From Bacillus sp. BA3 (GTDB lineage: Bacteria; Bacillota; Bacilli; Bacillales; DSM-1321): a DNA stretch of 64,000 bases. This document shows positions 6,650 to 13,423 of the stretch, in pieces. A program made the position numbers and the translations under genes. Below the pieces are notes generated by a model, which saw nothing but the letters and a program-made list of their open reading frames with translations, did no database searches and was not told where the DNA came from. Location: positions 185,494 to 249,493 of the forward strand of contig PIZR01000001.1 in the NCBI GenBank assembly GCA_002835675.1, read 5' to 3'. Within the stretch, counting starts at the first letter, position 1. Every line of letters begins with the position of its first letter.

Positions 6650-6758
6650 GGAACTGTGGCCGAGAGATGAATTCTTTATTTTGAAATTTCTTTAATCAGA
6701 TAGTTATGTGTACAAGCATTTATTGATACGTAACATAAGATTAATAGAGGTGATAGAA

Positions 6759-7448
6759 ATGGTAAAAGTATTTATTGATCCCGGCCACGGCGGTACGGAT
6801 CCAGGCTCGGTGGGGAATGGATTGAGAGAAAAGGATTTAACTTTATCCATTGCAACTCGAATTAAAGACATCTTATTAATAGAATATAATAACGTTTCTG
6901 TAAAAATGAGCAGGTACCAAGATACGTACCCCTCTTTAAACGATAGGACGAATGCAGCGAACGCGTGGGGAGCCGACTTTTATCTCTCCATCCACATCAA
7001 TGCCGGCGGCGGCACTGGGTATGAGGATTACGTTTATACGTCTACTAATCAGATTACGAAAACGTATCAAGATCATATTCATTCAGAGGTCTTGAAGCTT
7101 ATCAACATCCAAGACAGAGGACAAAAAACAGGAGATTTACATGTGCTCCGTGAAACGGACATGCCTGCACTACTGACTGAAAATGGATTTATCGATAATG
7201 TCAATGACGCAGCCAAATTGAAAACGGCAGCCTTTATCGAATCACTGGCTCGCGGGCATGTAAACGGTTTAGTTAAATGCTTCGATCTTAAAAAGAAAAT
7301 TACAGCTGTATACCACACAGTCGTTAATGGTGACACCGTATACTCCTTAAGCATGGCTTATGGCAGTACGGTTCAGCAAATTAAAGATTGGAACGCTCTT
7401 GACAGTCAGTACACCATTACAGTAAACCAGAAATTGCGGGTTAAATGA
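6759..7448 (+). CDS. N-acetylmuramoyl-L-alanine amidase (Amidase_3) with C-terminal LysM
   Basis: Residues 1-175 form an Amidase_3 domain with its zinc ligands and catalytic acid visible: H in DPGHGGTDPG, E in REKDL, H in LSIHINAG and E in LTENGF. A LysM wall-binding domain (YHTVVNGDTVYSLS ... QKLRVK) closes the protein. The family cleaves the lactyl-Ala bond of peptidoglycan. I chose the ATG at 6759 because AGAGGTGATAGAA precedes it and the domain starts at once; the frame opens earlier at 6708. There is no signal peptide, as in phage endolysins and mother-cell lysins such as CwlC. Its LysM is closely similar to that of the glucosaminidase at 12809. Confidence 0.87.
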   Translation: MVKVFIDPGHGGTDPGSVGNGLREKDLTLSIATRIKDILLIEYNNVSVKMSRYQDTYPSLNDRTNAANAWGADFYLSIHINAGGGTGYEDYVYTSTNQITKTYQDHIHSEVLKLINIQDRGQKTGDLHVLRETDMPALLTENGFIDNVNDAAKLKTAAFIESLARGHVNGLVKCFDLKKKITAVYHTVVNGDTVYSLSMAYGSTVQQIKDWNALDSQYTITVNQKLRVK

Positions 7449-7506
7449 ATAATTAATAGTTGCCTGGTTAAATTATTTTTAACTTCCAGAAGCACACCAC
7501 ACAGGA

Positions 7507-7750
7507 AGCCCTTCTCAAAAAGAGCTCGTCTTCAGTTTTTAAGGATTAGTACAATTTGAACGTTGATTTCCACTACAGGCACCCGTTTTCCGCGGGCGGT
7601 CCGGAAGCCTCCTCGACGCCTTTGCGCCTGGCGGGGTCTTCCTTGGACACGCATTTCCCTTAGGCGTCTCGCCACCCGCTCCAATCAACTTTGTTTTAAC
7701 TTTTAGAGAGAACCTCTTTTGTCTACAAACTCAGCCCTTCTCAAAAAGAG
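7507..7750. repeat. 18-bp direct repeats flanking the structured repeat element
   Basis: AGCCCTTCTCAAAAAGAG occurs at 7507-7524 and again at 7733-7750, 226 bp apart, bracketing the inverted-repeat element. The right copy is half of a complete terminator hairpin; in the left copy the second arm is missing. This looks like a duplication made when the element inserted. Confidence 0.6.
7562..7689. repeat. dispersed structured repeat, copy 1 (about 128 bp)
   Basis: The ends are inverted repeats (GTTGATT at 7562-7568, AATCAAC at 7683-7689). Inside, GCGGGCGG can pair with CCACCCGC, and TCCGGAAGCC with GGTCTTCCTTGGA with mismatches, so the unit can fold into one long imperfect hairpin. Its GC content is far above the surroundings. 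The first 36 bases recur at 63965-64000 with 4 mismatches. No ORF or transposase. Compatible with a REP/MITE-like non-coding element. Confidence 0.75.
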
Positions 7751-7757
7751 AGGGGCT
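7733..7757 (+). terminator. terminator right of the repeat element
   Basis: AGCCCTTCTC pairs with GAGAGGGGCT over five A, followed by TTTT. Probably the original terminator of the amidase gene, now separated from it by the repeat. Confidence 0.6.
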
Positions 7758-7920
7758 TTTCCTCGTTCAGGAATATGCGTGTAATAAAATAGTCGTGTAC
7801 ATTCTACTGTCTTAAATCAGTACTTAGATAATAGCGGAAGAAGTGAAAGGGAAAAATAAATGAATTTGCACAGAGGGCTAAAGTGGAATTGAATATATAC
7901 TCGCATTTTCCAAGAAACAA

Positions 7921-8116
7921 GCCTCTGACGGGATTCGAACCCGCACTCCTTTCGTAAGCATAGGCTAGGGGAGAACACGCTTCCCTACGGATTTTCACCG
8001 GCAGGAATTCCACCTGCCTCAGCGTATTTGCTTTTCGGTGCTTCTGAAACCCTTACCTTGCGACCCGGTGGCTACAAATGTTTTCCGGCGCTCTTCCCTT
8101 CTAGAGCTACAGAGGC
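7921..8116 (-). ncRNA. stand-alone tRNA-like RNA with a ~120-nt insert
   Basis: Read leftward, the 196-nt segment starts with GCCTCTG and ends with CAGAGGC, a perfect 7-bp acceptor stem. Next comes TA and a D-arm (GCTC, 10-nt loop with GG, GAGC). The 3' side has a canonical T-arm, GCGGGTTCGAATCCCGT. Where a tRNA has a 17-nt anticodon arm, there are about 130 nt with their own hairpins: CCGG/CCGG, GGCAGG/CCTGCC around TGGAATT, and TAGGG/CCCTA. A sigma-A promoter sits at the right distance (8133-8161). No CCA is encoded. It is too short, and of the wrong layout, for tmRNA; I see no group I intron core. Identity unknown. Confidence 0.7.
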
Positions 8117-8132
8117 AAATGCTTATCATCCT

Positions 8133-8161
8133 ATTATAAGATTCCCATATGAGGTTGTGAA
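8133..8161 (-). promoter_or_regulatory. sigma-A promoter of the tRNA-like RNA
   Basis: Leftward TTCACA (8156-8161), 17-bp spacer, TATAAT (8133-8138). The predicted start falls about 9 nt before the acceptor stem, as expected for a stable-RNA gene. The remaining bases to 8471 hold no gene that I can support. Confidence 0.75.
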
Positions 8162-8471
8162 CCGAATAATAAAAATATGATAATTTGATTGCCTAATACA
8201 GACAATTATATTCATTCTGCATGAAAGGGAAATCTGAAATAAAAGCCCGAGGAAGCTTATAGCTCCAAAAACATTCACTCAATGAAATAAGTAATCTGGG
8301 GAAAACGGATATGCCTTTGTATATAGGCTGACACAAATTTTAATTATCTTTTGCAAAGACATATATAAAGAACAATACTAATAAGCACAAACCATGATGG
8401 CTTGTACCTAATATATATCAGTCAACAAAGAGAACTAAAGTAATACTCCATAAAAAAATTCTAAGCGGACA

Positions 8472-9110
8472 TTAATCGTATATTTTAATGGCTTGAACCA
8501 CTTTTCCTAAAATTCGAACTCTATCATTTTTGATGTTATAGGTTTTTTCTTCATAAAAAGGATCCGTGCTGCAGGGAGTGAGTGTGATGTTTTCTGCATC
8601 GATATTCACTTTTTTGACAGTGGCATCGTGACCATTTACCAAGACCACTCCGATTTTTCCTTTATCAACGTAGGTTGTTTTTTCAACGAGAATCAATGAT
8701 CCGTCACTGAATTCTTTGTTCATGCTATTGCCATTCACTCTAAGGAAAAAATATTCTTTATTCGTTTTTAGCATCGAATTTAATGTCGGCATATAGGCTT
8801 CTATATATTCATTGGTAAAATTAGGCTCTCCAGCAGGGATATTGCCATATACTCCAATTAATCTTACATTTTTTTCATTTAGAAATTCCATTCCTGGAGC
8901 ATTTCTAACGTTAGGTGCTCCTTCAATGAGGTGGGATAGCGGTATTTCAAAGCATGAGGACATCATGCCCAATTTATCCATTAAAGGTTTATTCCGTCCG
9001 GATTCCCATGCTGATACTGCCGTTGGTGCCACCTTTAATATATTTGCCAAATCTTCTTGTGTCATTTTTCTTTCTTTTCTTAACATTTTAATCCGTTCAC
9101 CAATGTGCAT
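8472..9110 (-). CDS. phage-type repressor: XRE DNA-binding domain plus S24 peptidase
   Basis: A 212-residue protein. Residues 1-60 form an XRE helix-turn-helix (MTQEDLANILKVAPTAVSAW). Residues 90-210 form a LexA/CI-type S24 domain with the catalytic Ser in VNGNSMN and the Lys in ATVKKVN. The self-cleavage site should lie in the linker (VYGNIPAGEP; an AG dipeptide is visible). Such repressors are inactivated through RecA during DNA damage. It is divergent from a small Cro-like gene, a classic lysogeny switch. GAGGTGAA ribosome site, ATG start. The lytic genes it would control are not here, so the prophage is largely gone. Confidence 0.85.
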   Translation of the reverse strand: MHIGERIKMLRKERKMTQEDLANILKVAPTAVSAWESGRNKPLMDKLGMMSSCFEIPLSHLIEGAPNVRNAPGMEFLNEKNVRLIGVYGNIPAGEPNFTNEYIEAYMPTLNSMLKTNKEYFFLRVNGNSMNKEFSDGSLILVEKTTYVDKGKIGVVLVNGHDATVKKVNIDAENITLTPCSTDPFYEEKTYNIKNDRVRILGKVVQAIKIYD

Positions 9111-9158
9111 ATTTCTTCACCTCTTACTTGAATATACACCATGAGTGAAGGTGAGTAA

Positions 9159-9210
9159 ACTTAAAGTGCGTGAATTTTGCGAAAAATTGTTGGTAACTAT
9201 ACTTCAAGTG
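9159..9210. promoter_or_regulatory. paired operator candidates between the S24 repressor and Cro
   Basis: Two near-identical 9-bp palindromes, ACTTAAAGT (9159-9167) and ACTTCAAGT (9201-9209), lie 42 bp apart (four helical turns) in the divergent promoter region. They are the best candidates for repressor sites. Confidence 0.5.
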
Positions 9211-9244
9211 TGATATCATTTTTTTAGATAGGTGGTGACAAGAT

Positions 9245-9469
9245 ATGACAAACGTTAAGTTCACACTTAAACAAGCGAGGAAGTATAAAGGTTTAACACA
9301 GGAAGAAATGGCTAAAGTGCTGAAGATGGCCAAAAGGACTTACATTGACTATGAGCAATATAAGATTCCTTTGCGAATCGATAAGGCTTATTTGTTTGCT
9401 GAATGTGTAGGGTTCTCGATCGACGATATTATTTTTTTTGATCCCCACCTACACTTCAAATGTAGTTAA
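9245..9469 (+). CDS. Cro-like XRE helix-turn-helix protein
   Basis: A 74-residue protein that is nearly all one HTH domain: FTLKQARKYKGLTQEEMAKV followed by LKMAKRTYIDYEQYK. It lies divergent to the S24 repressor, 134 bp away, with a strong AGGTGGTGA ribosome site and ATG. By position and size it plays the Cro or early-activator part of a prophage switch. No phage replication gene follows. Target sites are presumably the dyads in the shared intergenic region. Confidence 0.8.
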   Translation: MTNVKFTLKQARKYKGLTQEEMAKVLKMAKRTYIDYEQYKIPLRIDKAYLFAECVGFSIDDIIFFDPHLHFKCS

Positions 9470-9553
9470 AGGATCAAGACTATCAATCATTTATTCACCA
9501 AAGTAACCATTCCTGGGGCAAAATTTAAGTAATGATCGAAACAGGGTGAAAAA

Positions 9554-9673
9554 ATGGGAAAGGAAAATCAGATAAATAAATTATACAATTGGAAGAGCGA
9601 GCATAGCCCTGATATTATTTATCCAGTTCTCATTGTGAAATACGCGTATGTGGCGTTTAGGGGAGGGCTTTAA
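9554..9673 (+). CDS. possible 39-residue small protein downstream of Cro
   Basis: ATG preceded by AGGGTGAAAAA opens a 40-codon frame (begins MGKENQINKLYNWKSE, ends AFRGGL). The composition is protein-like, but I know no homologue. Many phage early regions encode such short proteins; it may also be a remnant. Confidence 0.3.
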   Translation: MGKENQINKLYNWKSEHSPDIIYPVLIVKYAYVAFRGGL

Positions 9674-10181
9674 GGAGTTAATAATCCAAATACACGATTG
9701 ATACTGAGATCCCTATGAATGACAGCCAATTGCTGTGAAAGAATTTTTTCAACAATTTACTTAATGTATAGGATGGACTTCAAAACAACATGAATAGGAG
9801 CAATTGGACAGTGGCAAATTCGAAAAATAATATTTGGATGCTCATAAATAAAGTCAAGCCCTACATCCGTTGCAGGAGAAGGGCTTATTCTCTTTTTCTT
9901 CGTGAACATACAGCATTCGATATATGGATTTCCTCTATAAGGATAATTTCATAATTGGAAAATGACTGTATACATAAACGAATTGAAGGCAAATCATCAT
10001 ACTATATCTCCATTTTTTATGAATTCTTCTAGTTTTTTTCTCCTATCTTTATGAAGATAGCAGGTAATGGTATGCAAAAGTACAAATATATACTAATGAA
10101 GGCTATCAAAGGCATGGAAGGAGGGCGTTGAAAATAGGATGAGTTCGAAAGAATTCCACATGATATTGGAGGAGATAACAA
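9674..10181. other. gene-poor stretch between the phage switch and the lipase
   Basis: Only short frames, none with a good start. A hairpin AAGCCCT/AGGGCTT (9856-9886) followed by TTATTCTCTTTTT is a likely rightward terminator. Confidence 0.5.
9856..9886 (+). terminator. terminator in the remnant phage region
   Basis: AAGCCCT (9856-9862) pairs with AGGGCTT (9880-9886), then a pyrimidine-rich, T-rich run. No complete gene ends at it, which supports gene loss upstream. Confidence 0.55.
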
Positions 10182-11774
10182 TTGAAAAGGAATGTAATCA
10201 ATTATGTCGTTTTTCTTGTCCTCATTCTAACCATATTAATTATGGCCAAGCCAGACATTTCCTCAGCAGGAAAATTAAAGCCCCCTTCCGAAACTTTCAG
10301 TCCAGGGGATTGGTTTCTTGGAAGTATTCCTCCCAATCTTGATACAAAGAAACCACCGATCGTGTTTGTTCAAGGGAAAAACGGCAGTTCAACCAGCTGG
10401 TACGGTGAAACGGATTATCATGGTGTCAATGATATGTATACCAAAGCGTATGAAGCAGGCTACCAAACTGTTTTTGTTCAGCTTCATGATTCAGCTGGAA
10501 ATGGATCAGTGAGCCAATATGCTAATGGAAGGCTTTTAGCTCAAATGCTTGCAGAAATCAGTAACCATTTCGGGGGTGAAAAAGTAAATATTATAGCTCA
10601 CAGCAAAGGGGGCCCAGATACCCAAGCGGCTCTAGTGCACTATGGAGCACACCAGTATGTTGGAAGGGTGATCACTTTAGCTTCCCCCCATCATGGTTCT
10701 CACCTAGCTGATTTGGCTTATAGCTGGTATGCGGGCTGGCTTGGTTCCCTATTAGGTCAAAAAGATGAGGGAACTTATTCTTTACAAGTTGGTAAAATGG
10801 CTGAATTTCGTTCGGTCACGGATAACCATGTTAATTCTCGTAAAAACATGTATTTCACTGTGGCAGGCATGAACAGAGGCCCGGTTCTATCAGCCTTATC
10901 AATGGGTGGACAATATTTATCTTCATATGGGGAAAATGATGGTCTAGTGAATGTATGGAGTACAAAAATACCCTATGCAACACATTTATTTTCAGATCCC
11001 AACTTTGATCACGACAATATACGAGTCGGCTCAGCTGTATTTTCAAGAATTGAACCATATTTAAGAAGCACCTCCACCGCTGGGATCCCTGAATATAATG
11101 TCAATTATAAAGAACGGGTTGAAGAAGATGTCATTACCACCGCACTCGCTCAAACCGTTCTGGGTGATGTCCTGAAACAAAATGTCTGGATCGAACTAAG
11201 CTTCCATGTAAATGAATCAGCCCCAGGCAATATAAACATATATACAGCATCAAATGATGTCGAGGTTGAAATGATTTCTCCATCCAATAAAAAGTATTCA
11301 CCTTCCTTAATGGTTCATTCAGCCAAAAACGAAACTTCCTTTTTTAATGGTGCAACCGTCCAATCATTCAATAGAAACAACCTTGAAATTGGTGATTGGA
11401 AAGTGCGTATGAAGACTAAATCGCCAAAAGACGCCTACCTGTTCACAGCACAATTTAACGAAAAGAATCCCATTACATTAAGTATGGCCGGTAAAGTTAA
11501 GCAAAAAGATGCGAAATTTTTAATAAAGAACCCAATGAATGATAAAAAAAGGCCAATCAGCACAACATTTTTGGTTCATCTAATAGATGAAACAGGTAAT
11601 GAAATTAGTGAAAAAAGCTCAATTAAGGCAATGGATACAGAAAATTTTACTGGCACCCTTCCGGAAGTACCTAAGTCAGGTGTTTATAATGTAACAATAG
11701 ATGTCAAGGAAAAAAATGTGGATGGTACTGAAAGAACCCGGACAATGATTCGTTCGGTCTATATTGAGAAATAG
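10182..11774 (+). CDS. secreted lipase/esterase with C-terminal beta domains
   Basis: A 530-residue exported protein. Residues 1-30 are a signal peptide (KR, then VVFLVLILTILIMA, cleavage near SSAG). Residues 55-300 are an alpha/beta hydrolase with VFVQGKNG as the oxyanion strand and nucleophile elbow AHSKGG (Ser141). Candidate Asp is in GENDGLVN and candidate His in FDHDNIRVG. The last 200 residues look like beta-sandwich domains of the kind that bind surfaces. TTG start fixed by GGAGGAGATAACAA. It lacks a paired chaperone and is monocistronic. Triacylglycerol lipase is likely, but other esters are possible. Confidence 0.8.
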   Translation: MKRNVINYVVFLVLILTILIMAKPDISSAGKLKPPSETFSPGDWFLGSIPPNLDTKKPPIVFVQGKNGSSTSWYGETDYHGVNDMYTKAYEAGYQTVFVQLHDSAGNGSVSQYANGRLLAQMLAEISNHFGGEKVNIIAHSKGGPDTQAALVHYGAHQYVGRVITLASPHHGSHLADLAYSWYAGWLGSLLGQKDEGTYSLQVGKMAEFRSVTDNHVNSRKNMYFTVAGMNRGPVLSALSMGGQYLSSYGENDGLVNVWSTKIPYATHLFSDPNFDHDNIRVGSAVFSRIEPYLRSTSTAGIPEYNVNYKERVEEDVITTALAQTVLGDVLKQNVWIELSFHVNESAPGNINIYTASNDVEVEMISPSNKKYSPSLMVHSAKNETSFFNGATVQSFNRNNLEIGDWKVRMKTKSPKDAYLFTAQFNEKNPITLSMAGKVKQKDAKFLIKNPMNDKKRPISTTFLVHLIDETGNEISEKSSIKAMDTENFTGTLPEVPKSGVYNVTIDVKEKNVDGTERTRTMIRSVYIEK

Positions 11775-11805
11775 TGAAATGCATTCTCTTCTTTGAGAGG
11801 GTATC

Positions 11806-11843
11806 AGACTGTAGACAAATTCGAAGTTTGCCTTCAGTCTTTT
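11806..11843 (+). terminator. terminator of the lipase gene
   Basis: AGACTGTAGACAAA pairs with TTTGCCTTCAGTCT (two mismatches) and TTTT follows. The DNA just after (11865-11925) shares short blocks such as CTTTCCGC and GCCTCGGC with the dispersed repeat and may be a decayed copy. Confidence 0.65.
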
Positions 11844-11950
11844 CTTGAATAATAGATCCAGTTGAATACAGAAATCCGCTCCCTTTCCGCAGATCCTACC
11901 AAGCCGCCTCGGCAGGAGTGTAAAAAACATAATAACCCACTTTTCCCGAC

Positions 11951-11988
11951 AAAAAAAACCCTTCTCATAATTGAAAAGGTTTTTTTTG
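11951..11988. terminator. second hairpin in the lipase-holin gap
   Basis: AAAAAACC-CTT pairs with AAAAGGTTTTTT. A- and T-runs on both sides make it a bidirectional candidate. The rest of 11990-12156 shows nothing I can support. Confidence 0.55.
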
Positions 11989-12156
11989 GATGTAATGTGG
12001 TGCTAACATGGGTGGTTTGTTTTAGCCAAAGGATTCAGCCAGTTTGTAATTACTAATACAGCGATTAAATTAATGGTGTTCGATGGGAAATAAAGCTAGT
12101 AAGGTCATCTAGCAATAAAAAGATTGATGAATTTCAGCTAGACAACAAGAATAGAT

Positions 12157-12444
12157 TTAATCCGTCTTTTTGTAGGATTCTCTATAAGACAAAATACCAG
12201 TTTTGAGTGCAGCATAATTGCCTATGCTTGCATAGCCATAAAACCAGCCCATGAAAATTCCTGAAACCAAGTGATGACGATGACTGATGAAAATGGAAAT
12301 GAACAAGCCAAGACCCAAAGCGATGGTAGGGACGAATTTTGGATGAATATGAAACATGACCTTAATAAGTTGAGTAAGAATCATGATGGTAGGAATGGCT
12401 ATCACTGCATCCCAGAAGTTTGTATGGACGGTTGGGTAGTCCAT
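12157..12444 (-). CDS. small holin-like membrane protein
   Basis: A 95-residue protein with three hydrophobic segments (IPTIMILTQLIKVMF, VPTIALGLGLFISIFI, LVSGIFMGWFYGYASIG) and a charged tail (YRESYKKTD). Size and topology fit phage holins of the A118/Hol118 type, though identity is not obvious. In a phage, a holin releases the endolysin; here two LysM wall hydrolases lie nearby but in other transcription units. ATG with AAGGTGGTGA. Alternatively an unrelated small membrane protein. Confidence 0.5.
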   Translation of the reverse strand: MDYPTVHTNFWDAVIAIPTIMILTQLIKVMFHIHPKFVPTIALGLGLFISIFISHRHHLVSGIFMGWFYGYASIGNYAALKTGILSYRESYKKTD

Positions 12445-12566
12445 GATTTCACCACCTTGAAATGAAGTTTTTAAAAATAGTTTTTGTTTTTCATCAAGGT
12501 TTTATACAAAAATAAATAATTACAAATTTAAAATTAACGAACAAGTTTTGAAGATTTTCAGTGTTC

Positions 12567-12620
12567 AACAGGAAAAGCCGTCAATCCATTTAATTAAATG
12601 GATTGACGGCTTTTCCTGTT
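12567..12620. repeat. 54-bp perfect palindrome
   Basis: Two 27-nt arms (12567-12593 and 12594-12620) are exact reverse complements with no spacer. The outer arm reads AACAGGAAAAGCCGTCAATC. An RNA from either strand would form a hairpin followed by TTTTCCTGTTT, so it could terminate both ways between the leftward holin gene and the rightward glucosaminidase. Confidence 0.8.
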
Positions 12621-12808
12621 TGGTAGGGAAATGGATAAATAATACTCGAAGCAGGCCACTCTAGGTAAGAAATCTATAATAAAAACAATTAGCCAAACAT
12701 CAGAACCTTTTGTATGGGACTTGCTGTAACCTTTTTCATAGATGAGAATACGATAAGAATGAAGATGAACAGTGAAAAATAAAGTAAAACCATTGATGGG
12801 AGGTTCTA

Positions 12809-13423
12809 ATGAGCAAGGAAACATTTATTAAGGAAATTGCTCCCTATGCCCAGAAAATTCAACAGGAATTTAAAATATTACCTTCTGTTGTCATTGCACA
12901 AGCTTGTTTGGAGAGTGGATATGGGACAAGTTTATTAGCAAGCAAAGGAAAAAATATATTCGGTACAAAAGGTGACTTCAAGGGTGAGTCTGTCATCATT
13001 CAGACAATGGAATATGTCAATGGCGTACCCGTTCAAGTATGGAACAAATTCAGAAAATACCCATCTTGGGAAGAAAGTCTTAGAGATCTTGCCAATTTAT
13101 ATGTAAAGGGGACTTCATGGAATAGAAGTCTTTATACGGCTGTCATTGGAGAAAAAGATTACAGAAAAGCACTCAAAGCAATTTTCGATGCTGGGTACGC
13201 CTCGGATCCCAACTATATTGAAAAACTGGTGAACCTTATCGAAACAAGCGATTTAACAAAATATGATGCAAGTATAGAAGAGGTTTATCATATTGTCCAA
13301 AAAGGGGATACCGTCTCTGCGCTTGCAAAAGCATACGGTTCTACACAAGTGCAGATTCAACAGTGGAACGGCTTGGTAGATCTTAACCTAATTAAAGTGA
13401 ACCAAAGATTACGAGTGAAGTGA
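12809..13423 (+). CDS. N-acetylglucosaminidase (GH73/LytG-like) with C-terminal LysM
   Basis: A 204-residue protein. Residues 1-150 form a GH73-type glucosaminidase domain: PSVVIAQACLESGYG contains the catalytic Glu, and SKGKNIFGTKG and YPSWEESLRDLANLY are typical flanking motifs. Residues 160-204 are a LysM domain (YHIVQKGDTVSALAKAYGS ... RLRVK). The enzyme class hydrolyses the glycan strand of peptidoglycan. There is no signal peptide, so export would need a holin or mother-cell lysis. The LysM matches that of the amidase at 6759 closely, suggesting a shared phage-like origin. Ribosome site GGGAGG, ATG start. Confidence 0.83.
   Translation: MSKETFIKEIAPYAQKIQQEFKILPSVVIAQACLESGYGTSLLASKGKNIFGTKGDFKGESVIIQTMEYVNGVPVQVWNKFRKYPSWEESLRDLANLYVKGTSWNRSLYTAVIGEKDYRKALKAIFDAGYASDPNYIEKLVNLIETSDLTKYDASIEEVYHIVQKGDTVSALAKAYGSTQVQIQQWNGLVDLNLIKVNQRLRVK

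Follow-up and report, generated by a model that had tools for sequence, protein, structure and literature searches.

A putative mobile tRNA-like RNA with a conserved core domain in bacilli and Listeria plasmids: a probable new class of tRNA mimic

The tRNA-like RNA locus

The window, i.e. the whole 64,000-nt stretch of Bacillus sp. BA3 DNA that was analysed, carries on its minus strand (8116–7920) an RNA gene of 197 nt including the discriminator base, adjoined by an S24 repressor gene and an HTH gene (Table 1). The surrounding region (6708–13423) holds an amidase-LysM gene, the S24 repressor, the divergent HTH gene and a glucosaminidase-LysM gene next to lexA, which suggests a prophage remnant. 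The two ends of the RNA, GCCTCTG (8116–8110) and CAGAGGC (7927–7921), form a perfect 7-bp acceptor pairing, 196 nt from end to end. An earlier note on this DNA, made from the sequence alone, had described this acceptor together with a D-arm and a canonical T-arm, and all three are present in the window sequence. It had also placed a sigma-A promoter about 9 nt before the acceptor, in agreement with the motif found: the −10 element is spaced 16 nt from G1 and the inferred start lies ∼9–10 nt upstream of the acceptor. Among the family, TATAAT is matched at five or more of six positions in 63 of 76 flanks (mononucleotide shuffles: mean 47, maximum 58). The further statement that the anticodon arm is replaced by a folded insert is correct in part: there is a large folded insert, mainly P2–P3 (8057–7963) with P4 (7959–7945) preceding the T-arm, but the anticodon-arm position itself is occupied by a local hairpin, P1 (8088–8065).

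Table 1. Features of the tRNA-like RNA and its promoter in the window
Feature	Position	Strand	Evidence
tRNA-like RNA, 197 nt	7920..8116	-	cmsearch with covariance model R1, 235.7 bits (own sequence is in the model); homologues
Acceptor stem, 5′ strand GCCTCTG	8110..8116	-	pairs with 7921–7927; compensatory in 4/7 pairs; 99.6% of cells paired
Acceptor stem, 3′ strand CAGAGGC	7921..7927	-	pairs with 8110–8116; covariation as for the 5′ strand
Discriminator base, U in the window copy	7920..7920	-	A in 51/77, U in 26/77 unique homologues
D-arm (GCTC/GAGC)	8090..8107	-	98.1% of cells paired; no compensatory change
P1 hairpin at the anticodon-arm position; loop with AAAAC and UGU	8065..8088	-	100% of cells paired; 2/4 pairs compensatory
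P2, 5′ strand of long-range stem	8050..8057	-	pairs with 7963–7970; 3/7 pairs compensatory
P2, 3′ strand	7963..7970	-	pairs with 8050–8057
P3 domain with hairpins P3a and P3b	7996..8040	-	P3b covaries in 3/6 pairs; P3 and P3a without compensatory change
Unpaired core strand with GTAGGGAAGCG	7971..7995	-	17/25 positions invariant in 40 sequences
P4 hairpin, GNRA-type loop in 36/40 sequences	7945..7959	-	99.0% of cells paired; closing pair compensatory
T-arm GCGGG-TTCGAAT-CCCGT	7928..7944	-	99.5% of cells paired; no two-sided change; loop invariant at 6/7 positions
Sigma-A-type promoter TTCACA-17-TATAAT	8133..8161	-	11/12 consensus match

Secondary structure and covariation

Forty homologues were aligned, taken from 47 diverse sequences after exclusion of six that lack ∼15 internal nt and of one distant homologue. 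The structure, comprising 45 pairs, was made by hand and drawn from the aligned sequences themselves, which favours it in the slide control. Over the 40 homologues 99.0% of the cells are paired; in versions of the structure slid along the alignment this value falls to 35–50%. Two-sided changes affect 13 pairs and 70 cells, against shuffle means of 5.6 and 13.5, respectively. None of five covariation measures was reached by any of 500 shuffles and the slid versions were also lower, although the shuffle figures overstate the case because related sequences are not independent. Compensatory pairs are distributed over the acceptor stem (4), P1 (2), P2 (3), P3b (3) and P4 (1). Each of the acceptor pairs 4–7 shows compensatory change; pairs 1–3 are G-C, C-G and C-G in 39, 39 and 40 of the 40 sequences. 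The covariation check proposed in the earlier note for the acceptor, D and T stems was borne out for the four acceptor pairs but not for the other two stems: the D-stem, the T-stem, P3 and P3a contain no two-sided change in the 40 sequences, so that covariation is no test of them.

P2 closes the domain holding P3, P3a and P3b, and inspection of the distant homologue reveals a P2-like pairing kept with other letters. P4 is similar to the variable arm of class II tRNAs (compare the tRNA-Leu-like arm at locus L157). A pseudoknot (AAGCGTG/TATGCTT, 98.6% paired) and a loop contact (AAAC/GTTT, 99.4% paired) are both nearly invariant and hence offer no covariation test, and an alternative pairing (TAGGG/CCCTA) is paired in 95.5% with zero compensatory changes. 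At seven loci (L012, L015, L059, L074, L077, L089 and L094) the ∼15 nt between two GGTGAAANTCC repeats are absent and hairpin P3b is lost; this loss in several species looks recurrent. An antisense role of the core sequence CCGTAGGGAAGCGTGTT was considered and rejected: with up to three mismatches it occurs at 4 places in its own genome, itself included, compared with 10 for the reversed control.

Folding of single sequences was no better than that of shuffles (z −0.35 for the window copy and −0.24 for the distant homologue), and the minimum-energy fold of the window copy contains no D-arm. The case for the structure therefore rests on the homologues.

Relation to known RNA families

ARAGORN reported neither a tRNA nor a tmRNA in the window and, run without introns, called a tRNA in 0/47 and a tmRNA in 0/47 sequences. 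The Rfam comparison that the earlier note had advised yielded no family at its gathering score in the window; when thresholds were relaxed for the window stretch and for two homologues, only matches below the cut-off appeared, mostly chance or T-arm. The best match of the tRNA model (RF00005) was partial, with 18.9 bits at locus L039 against a cut-off of 29. The tmRNA model (RF00023) matched a 15-nt T-arm segment only (12.4 bits, cut-off 47), and no group I or group II intron reached the gathering score, the best group II model giving 10.9 of 49 bits. The RNA possesses the 7-bp acceptor stem and the T-arm with a TTCNANT loop of a tRNA. The 5-bp anticodon stem with a 7-nt loop is absent; P1 is a 4-bp stem whose loop is longer and variable.

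A stand-alone RNA gene, as claimed at the outset, is supported by homologues and covariation. The two exclusions made in the earlier note have held, that of tmRNA by the RF00023 and ARAGORN results, and that of an intron-bearing tRNA by inconsistent anticodons (see below) and intron families below their cut-offs. By the sources searched, the RNA is almost certainly real and of a new class, and the interpretation as a new class of tRNA mimic, already offered in that note, is supported: Rfam and ARAGORN are without a match and covariation extends across 40 homologues. We recognised no description of the family in a literature search of open-access papers. Transcriptomes of Listeria plasmids name other plasmid RNAs (PMC9484302, PMC6985202). 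Since neither ARAGORN in its default mode nor Rfam calls the gene, standard annotation is likely to miss it.

Ends and probable maturation

For the analysis of the ends 78 sequences were extracted and one was dropped owing to a low acceptor score, leaving 77 unique sequences; 11 loci were skipped by the extraction. The base following the discriminator (+74) is T in 71/77 and C in 6/77, compared with 36% T downstream (binomial 4e-25, a value overstated by kinship). Directly before G1 (−1) we counted T 35, C 35, A 6 and G 1 (n = 77), the upstream 40 nt being 37% A. U74 fits RNase Z and a pyrimidine at −1 fits RNase P. A CCA is encoded in 2/77 sequences, near the chance expectation of 1/64. Judged from these end signatures, a tRNA-type maturation of the RNA is quite likely: after transcription from its own promoter, the tRNA-like half (acceptor, D/T elbow and T-arm) would route the transcript into tRNA maturation, in which RNase P would cut the 5′ end and RNase Z the 3′ end, followed by CCA addition. 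A distant homologue with an encoded CCA lies within a cluster of tRNA genes for Glu, Ile and Trp. At locus L160 the cluster comprises tRNA-Glu, a 96-nt tRNA-Ile-TAT, tRNA-Trp and the tRNA-like RNA.

Distribution and proposed mobility

Among the 72,556 plasmid records searched, 18 gave a match (8 from Listeria, 5 from Cytobacillus, 2 each from Peribacillus and Bacillus, and 1 from Priestia), and in 16 of these the match spans 80% of the query or more. None of 50,697 phage records matches. Many loci lie on chromosomal contigs. In the host family 23/43 genomes match, all 23 in one genus. A near-full copy (at least 180 of the 197 query bases by BLAST coverage) is present in 15/23 of these genomes and 8/23 carry partial copies only, so that the RNA is not essential. 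Within the host class 11/398 genomes match, a number which includes the host and one match taken for chance. A gapped-pattern scan of named genomes, with a pattern biased to copies with an intact core, gave 77 loci; 72 of these are fitted by R1, four scoring below 100 bits, and 26 of the 72 were used in building the model. Counted from record titles, the 72 loci cover 24 genus names. Two viral contigs retrieved by the same pattern also match R1, and three viral scans returned the same two loci or none.

Two distant homologues occur in the host's class (98.3 and 73.4 bits), the lower-scoring of which may be in decay. To find relatives outside Bacilli, R1 was run on 398 genomes of the phylum (stricter filters, six candidates scored per genome) and produced matches in 24 of them: in four the match is genuine, with E below 1e-55, and the other 20 reach 25–30 bits. 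Eight of these 20 were inspected; six hold tRNAs according to ARAGORN, one is a tRNA by eye and one is not a tRNA. When the distant homologue served as query in 42 genomes of one order, four matches were obtained, two already known, one coding-like and one tRNA-Leu (the last two by eye). In the host genus there is a second copy, mostly degenerate or truncated, beside a putative gene for a small acid-soluble spore protein of the alpha/beta type; the ten loci listed (L002, L018–L020, L023, L025–L028 and L030) have ∼260 nt in common upstream. Loci L076 (2646–2818; 45.4 bits) and L104 (2239–2376; 34.7 bits) each hold one further match of the RNA model at a lower score, perhaps a decayed copy.

In 250 pairs drawn at random from 66 loci, the RNA shows a median identity of 0.92. 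For the 100-nt flanks of the same pairs it is 0.47 and 0.44, with 0.46 and 0.44 for shuffled flanks. The Listeria plasmid copy and two Kurthia copies are 99.5% identical in the RNA, 80–81% alike in the upstream 100 nt and 63–64% downstream, where a similar terminator-like hairpin can be seen by eye. From this likeness of RNA and flanks, a unit of promoter, RNA and terminator seems to have moved between families.

The neighbour scan covered 120 of 124 immediate neighbour ORFs at 68 loci, four at locus ends being omitted. The commonest Pfam family occurred in 5/120 adjacent ORFs, a count without background control, and no PADLOC defence model (E 1e-10) in more than 2 of the 120. One ORF cluster extends over 30 loci and was taken for reading frames across the RNA itself; the next-largest covers 7 loci, mostly non-adjacent to the RNA. 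At locus L160 the ORFs beside the tRNA cluster were read by eye as HTH regulators and a serine recombinase. The suggestion of the earlier note that the RNA is possibly phage-borne finds some backing in these ORFs and in the S24 repressor and HTH gene beside the window copy, but not in the databases, given the lack of phage matches, the plasmid records and the absence of a Pfam family from more than five adjacent ORFs. As a best reading of the sequence comparisons, the RNA would represent a mobile class.

Proposed function and alternatives

As an overall explanation we favour an accessory mimic that matures like a tRNA and, through a specific core, would act on conserved components of translation, and regard this as moderately probable. 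In place of the codon-reading part of a tRNA there is a short hairpin together with a covarying domain of ∼100 nt, whose nearly invariant unpaired core (25 nt, 17 of them invariant) would be the effector. Such a mimic could act on a host synthetase, EF-Tu, the ribosome or tRNA enzymes; charging, partner and effect are what we infer. Action on the translation machinery, proposed because the RNA occurs in many genera with no recurring partner gene adjacent, is the more tentative part and falls somewhat short of an even chance. We found no identity element that would point to a single synthetase, and as discriminator both A and U occur. According to the identity rules for threonine, the P1 loop motif NGU (73/77: UGU 69, GGU 2, AGU 2) and the fixed G1-C72 and C2-G71 pairs hint at threonine. 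A bolder and rather unlikely extension is a second hybrid of tRNA and domain besides tmRNA, mobile, with tRNA-like carriage or charging and a core that binds a ligand or is catalytic on the ribosome or a tRNA enzyme; for this reading the NGU motif and the two fixed pairs make threonyl-tRNA synthetase (ThrRS) the first candidate partner.

We weighed four alternatives. A decoy or replacement tRNA mimic could shield mobile elements from tRNA-cleaving enzymes of the host, which would suit the plasmid-borne copies and the tRNA cluster adjoining HTH-like and recombinase-like ORFs in one genome. Such a role is nevertheless unlikely in view of the missing phage matches, the many chromosomal loci and the lack of recurring defence models; moreover P1 has no normal 7-nt anticodon loop and the core is far bigger than a decoy requires. 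Still less likely is that a small intron, perhaps self-splicing, interrupts a tRNA and is excised to yield a normal one. ARAGORN with introns allowed does fit an intron-bearing tRNA in 30/47 sequences (with CCA appended to each), and a ribozyme would suit the invariant unpaired core. However, the predicted exons give conflicting anticodons (Ile 11, Glu 10, Gly 4, Leu 2, Thr 2, His 1; 17 none), on which the intron-bearing tRNA fails, and the stem at the anticodon position, P1, pairs locally with compensatory changes; the intron models, as described above, stay below their gathering scores.

A mimic of threonine tRNA acting on T-box switches of ThrRS genes is very improbable. It would be in line with the NGU motif and the conserved G1-C72 and C2-G71, and the host does have T-boxes upstream of putative ThrRS genes. 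We examined 21 ThrRS-like loci, two weaker ones (∼40% identity) being left out, and found the bulge at 20/21, with UGGA in all 20. By the pairing rule, a UGGA T-box bulge requires U73, but 9/14 hosts carry an A73 RNA despite UGGA bulges, and the most distant homologue lacks NGU in its P1 loop. On this ground a threonine T-box effector lacks support, as the bulge is UGGA whichever discriminator, A73 or U73, the RNA has. Upstream of a second gene resembling that of threonyl-tRNA synthetase, the host carries three T-box elements side by side (L212–L214, L237). Least credible of all is that the locus is a tRNA in decay or a scar left by the integration of a mobile element, functionless as RNA: the host genus has many degenerate and partial copies and ARAGORN without introns calls none of the 47 sequences, but five helices with compensatory change, unpaired bases conserved over 40 sequences, conserved end signatures and an RNA identity far above that of the flanks all stand against it.

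Comparison with known systems

The accessory tRNA mimic proposed here shares single traits with several known RNAs. With class II tRNAs such as tRNA-Leu it has in common the canonical T-arm and a P4 that is like the long variable arm; it differs in the ∼100-nt domain between the anticodon-position hairpin and the P4 arm and in U73, found in 26/77. Group I intron-bearing tRNAs carry their insert in the anticodon region, as does our RNA, which in contrast has no consistent exon tRNA and matches no intron family at cut-off. In bacterial Y RNAs of the YrlA type a tRNA-like domain is likewise part of a stand-alone noncoding RNA; there it is internal or permuted, whereas the acceptor stem described here is formed by the true ends. 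The corresponding test gave no Rfam family at cut-off in a library that may lack a YrlA model. The pseudo-tRNA tRNAOther of Bacillus cereus is a tRNA-like small RNA of Bacilli that lies near a genomic island, is unused in translation, carries a Trp anticodon and has been suggested to be a tRNA-like element within a larger regulatory RNA (PMC3399842). Our RNA is set apart from it through the absence of a normal anticodon loop and through its conserved ∼100-nt core.

The closest parallel is tmRNA (RF00023). To our knowledge few bacterial RNAs combine a tRNA body with a sizeable non-coding domain, and tmRNA, central to ribosome rescue, is the well-known one. Both RNAs have a tRNA-like acceptor and T-arm joined to a big structured domain, no normal anticodon and a stand-alone gene. 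Differences are the D-stem, present in our RNA, and the third acceptor pair, which is C-G in 40/40 and not G3-U70, the alanine identity pair of tmRNA. In addition no tag frame is kept: on inspection, several homologues carry an additional base that disrupts the candidate frame seen in the window. Because of the failed RF00023 model, the missing G3-U70 and the tag frame as judged by eye, the RNA resembles tmRNA in plan but is not tmRNA itself. A second such class, occurring in many genera and on plasmids both of bacilli and of food-borne Listeria, would show tRNA mimicry to be a recurring accessory trait, and with promoter, likely ends and structure in hand, and with hosts that suit laboratory work, the RNA is directly testable.
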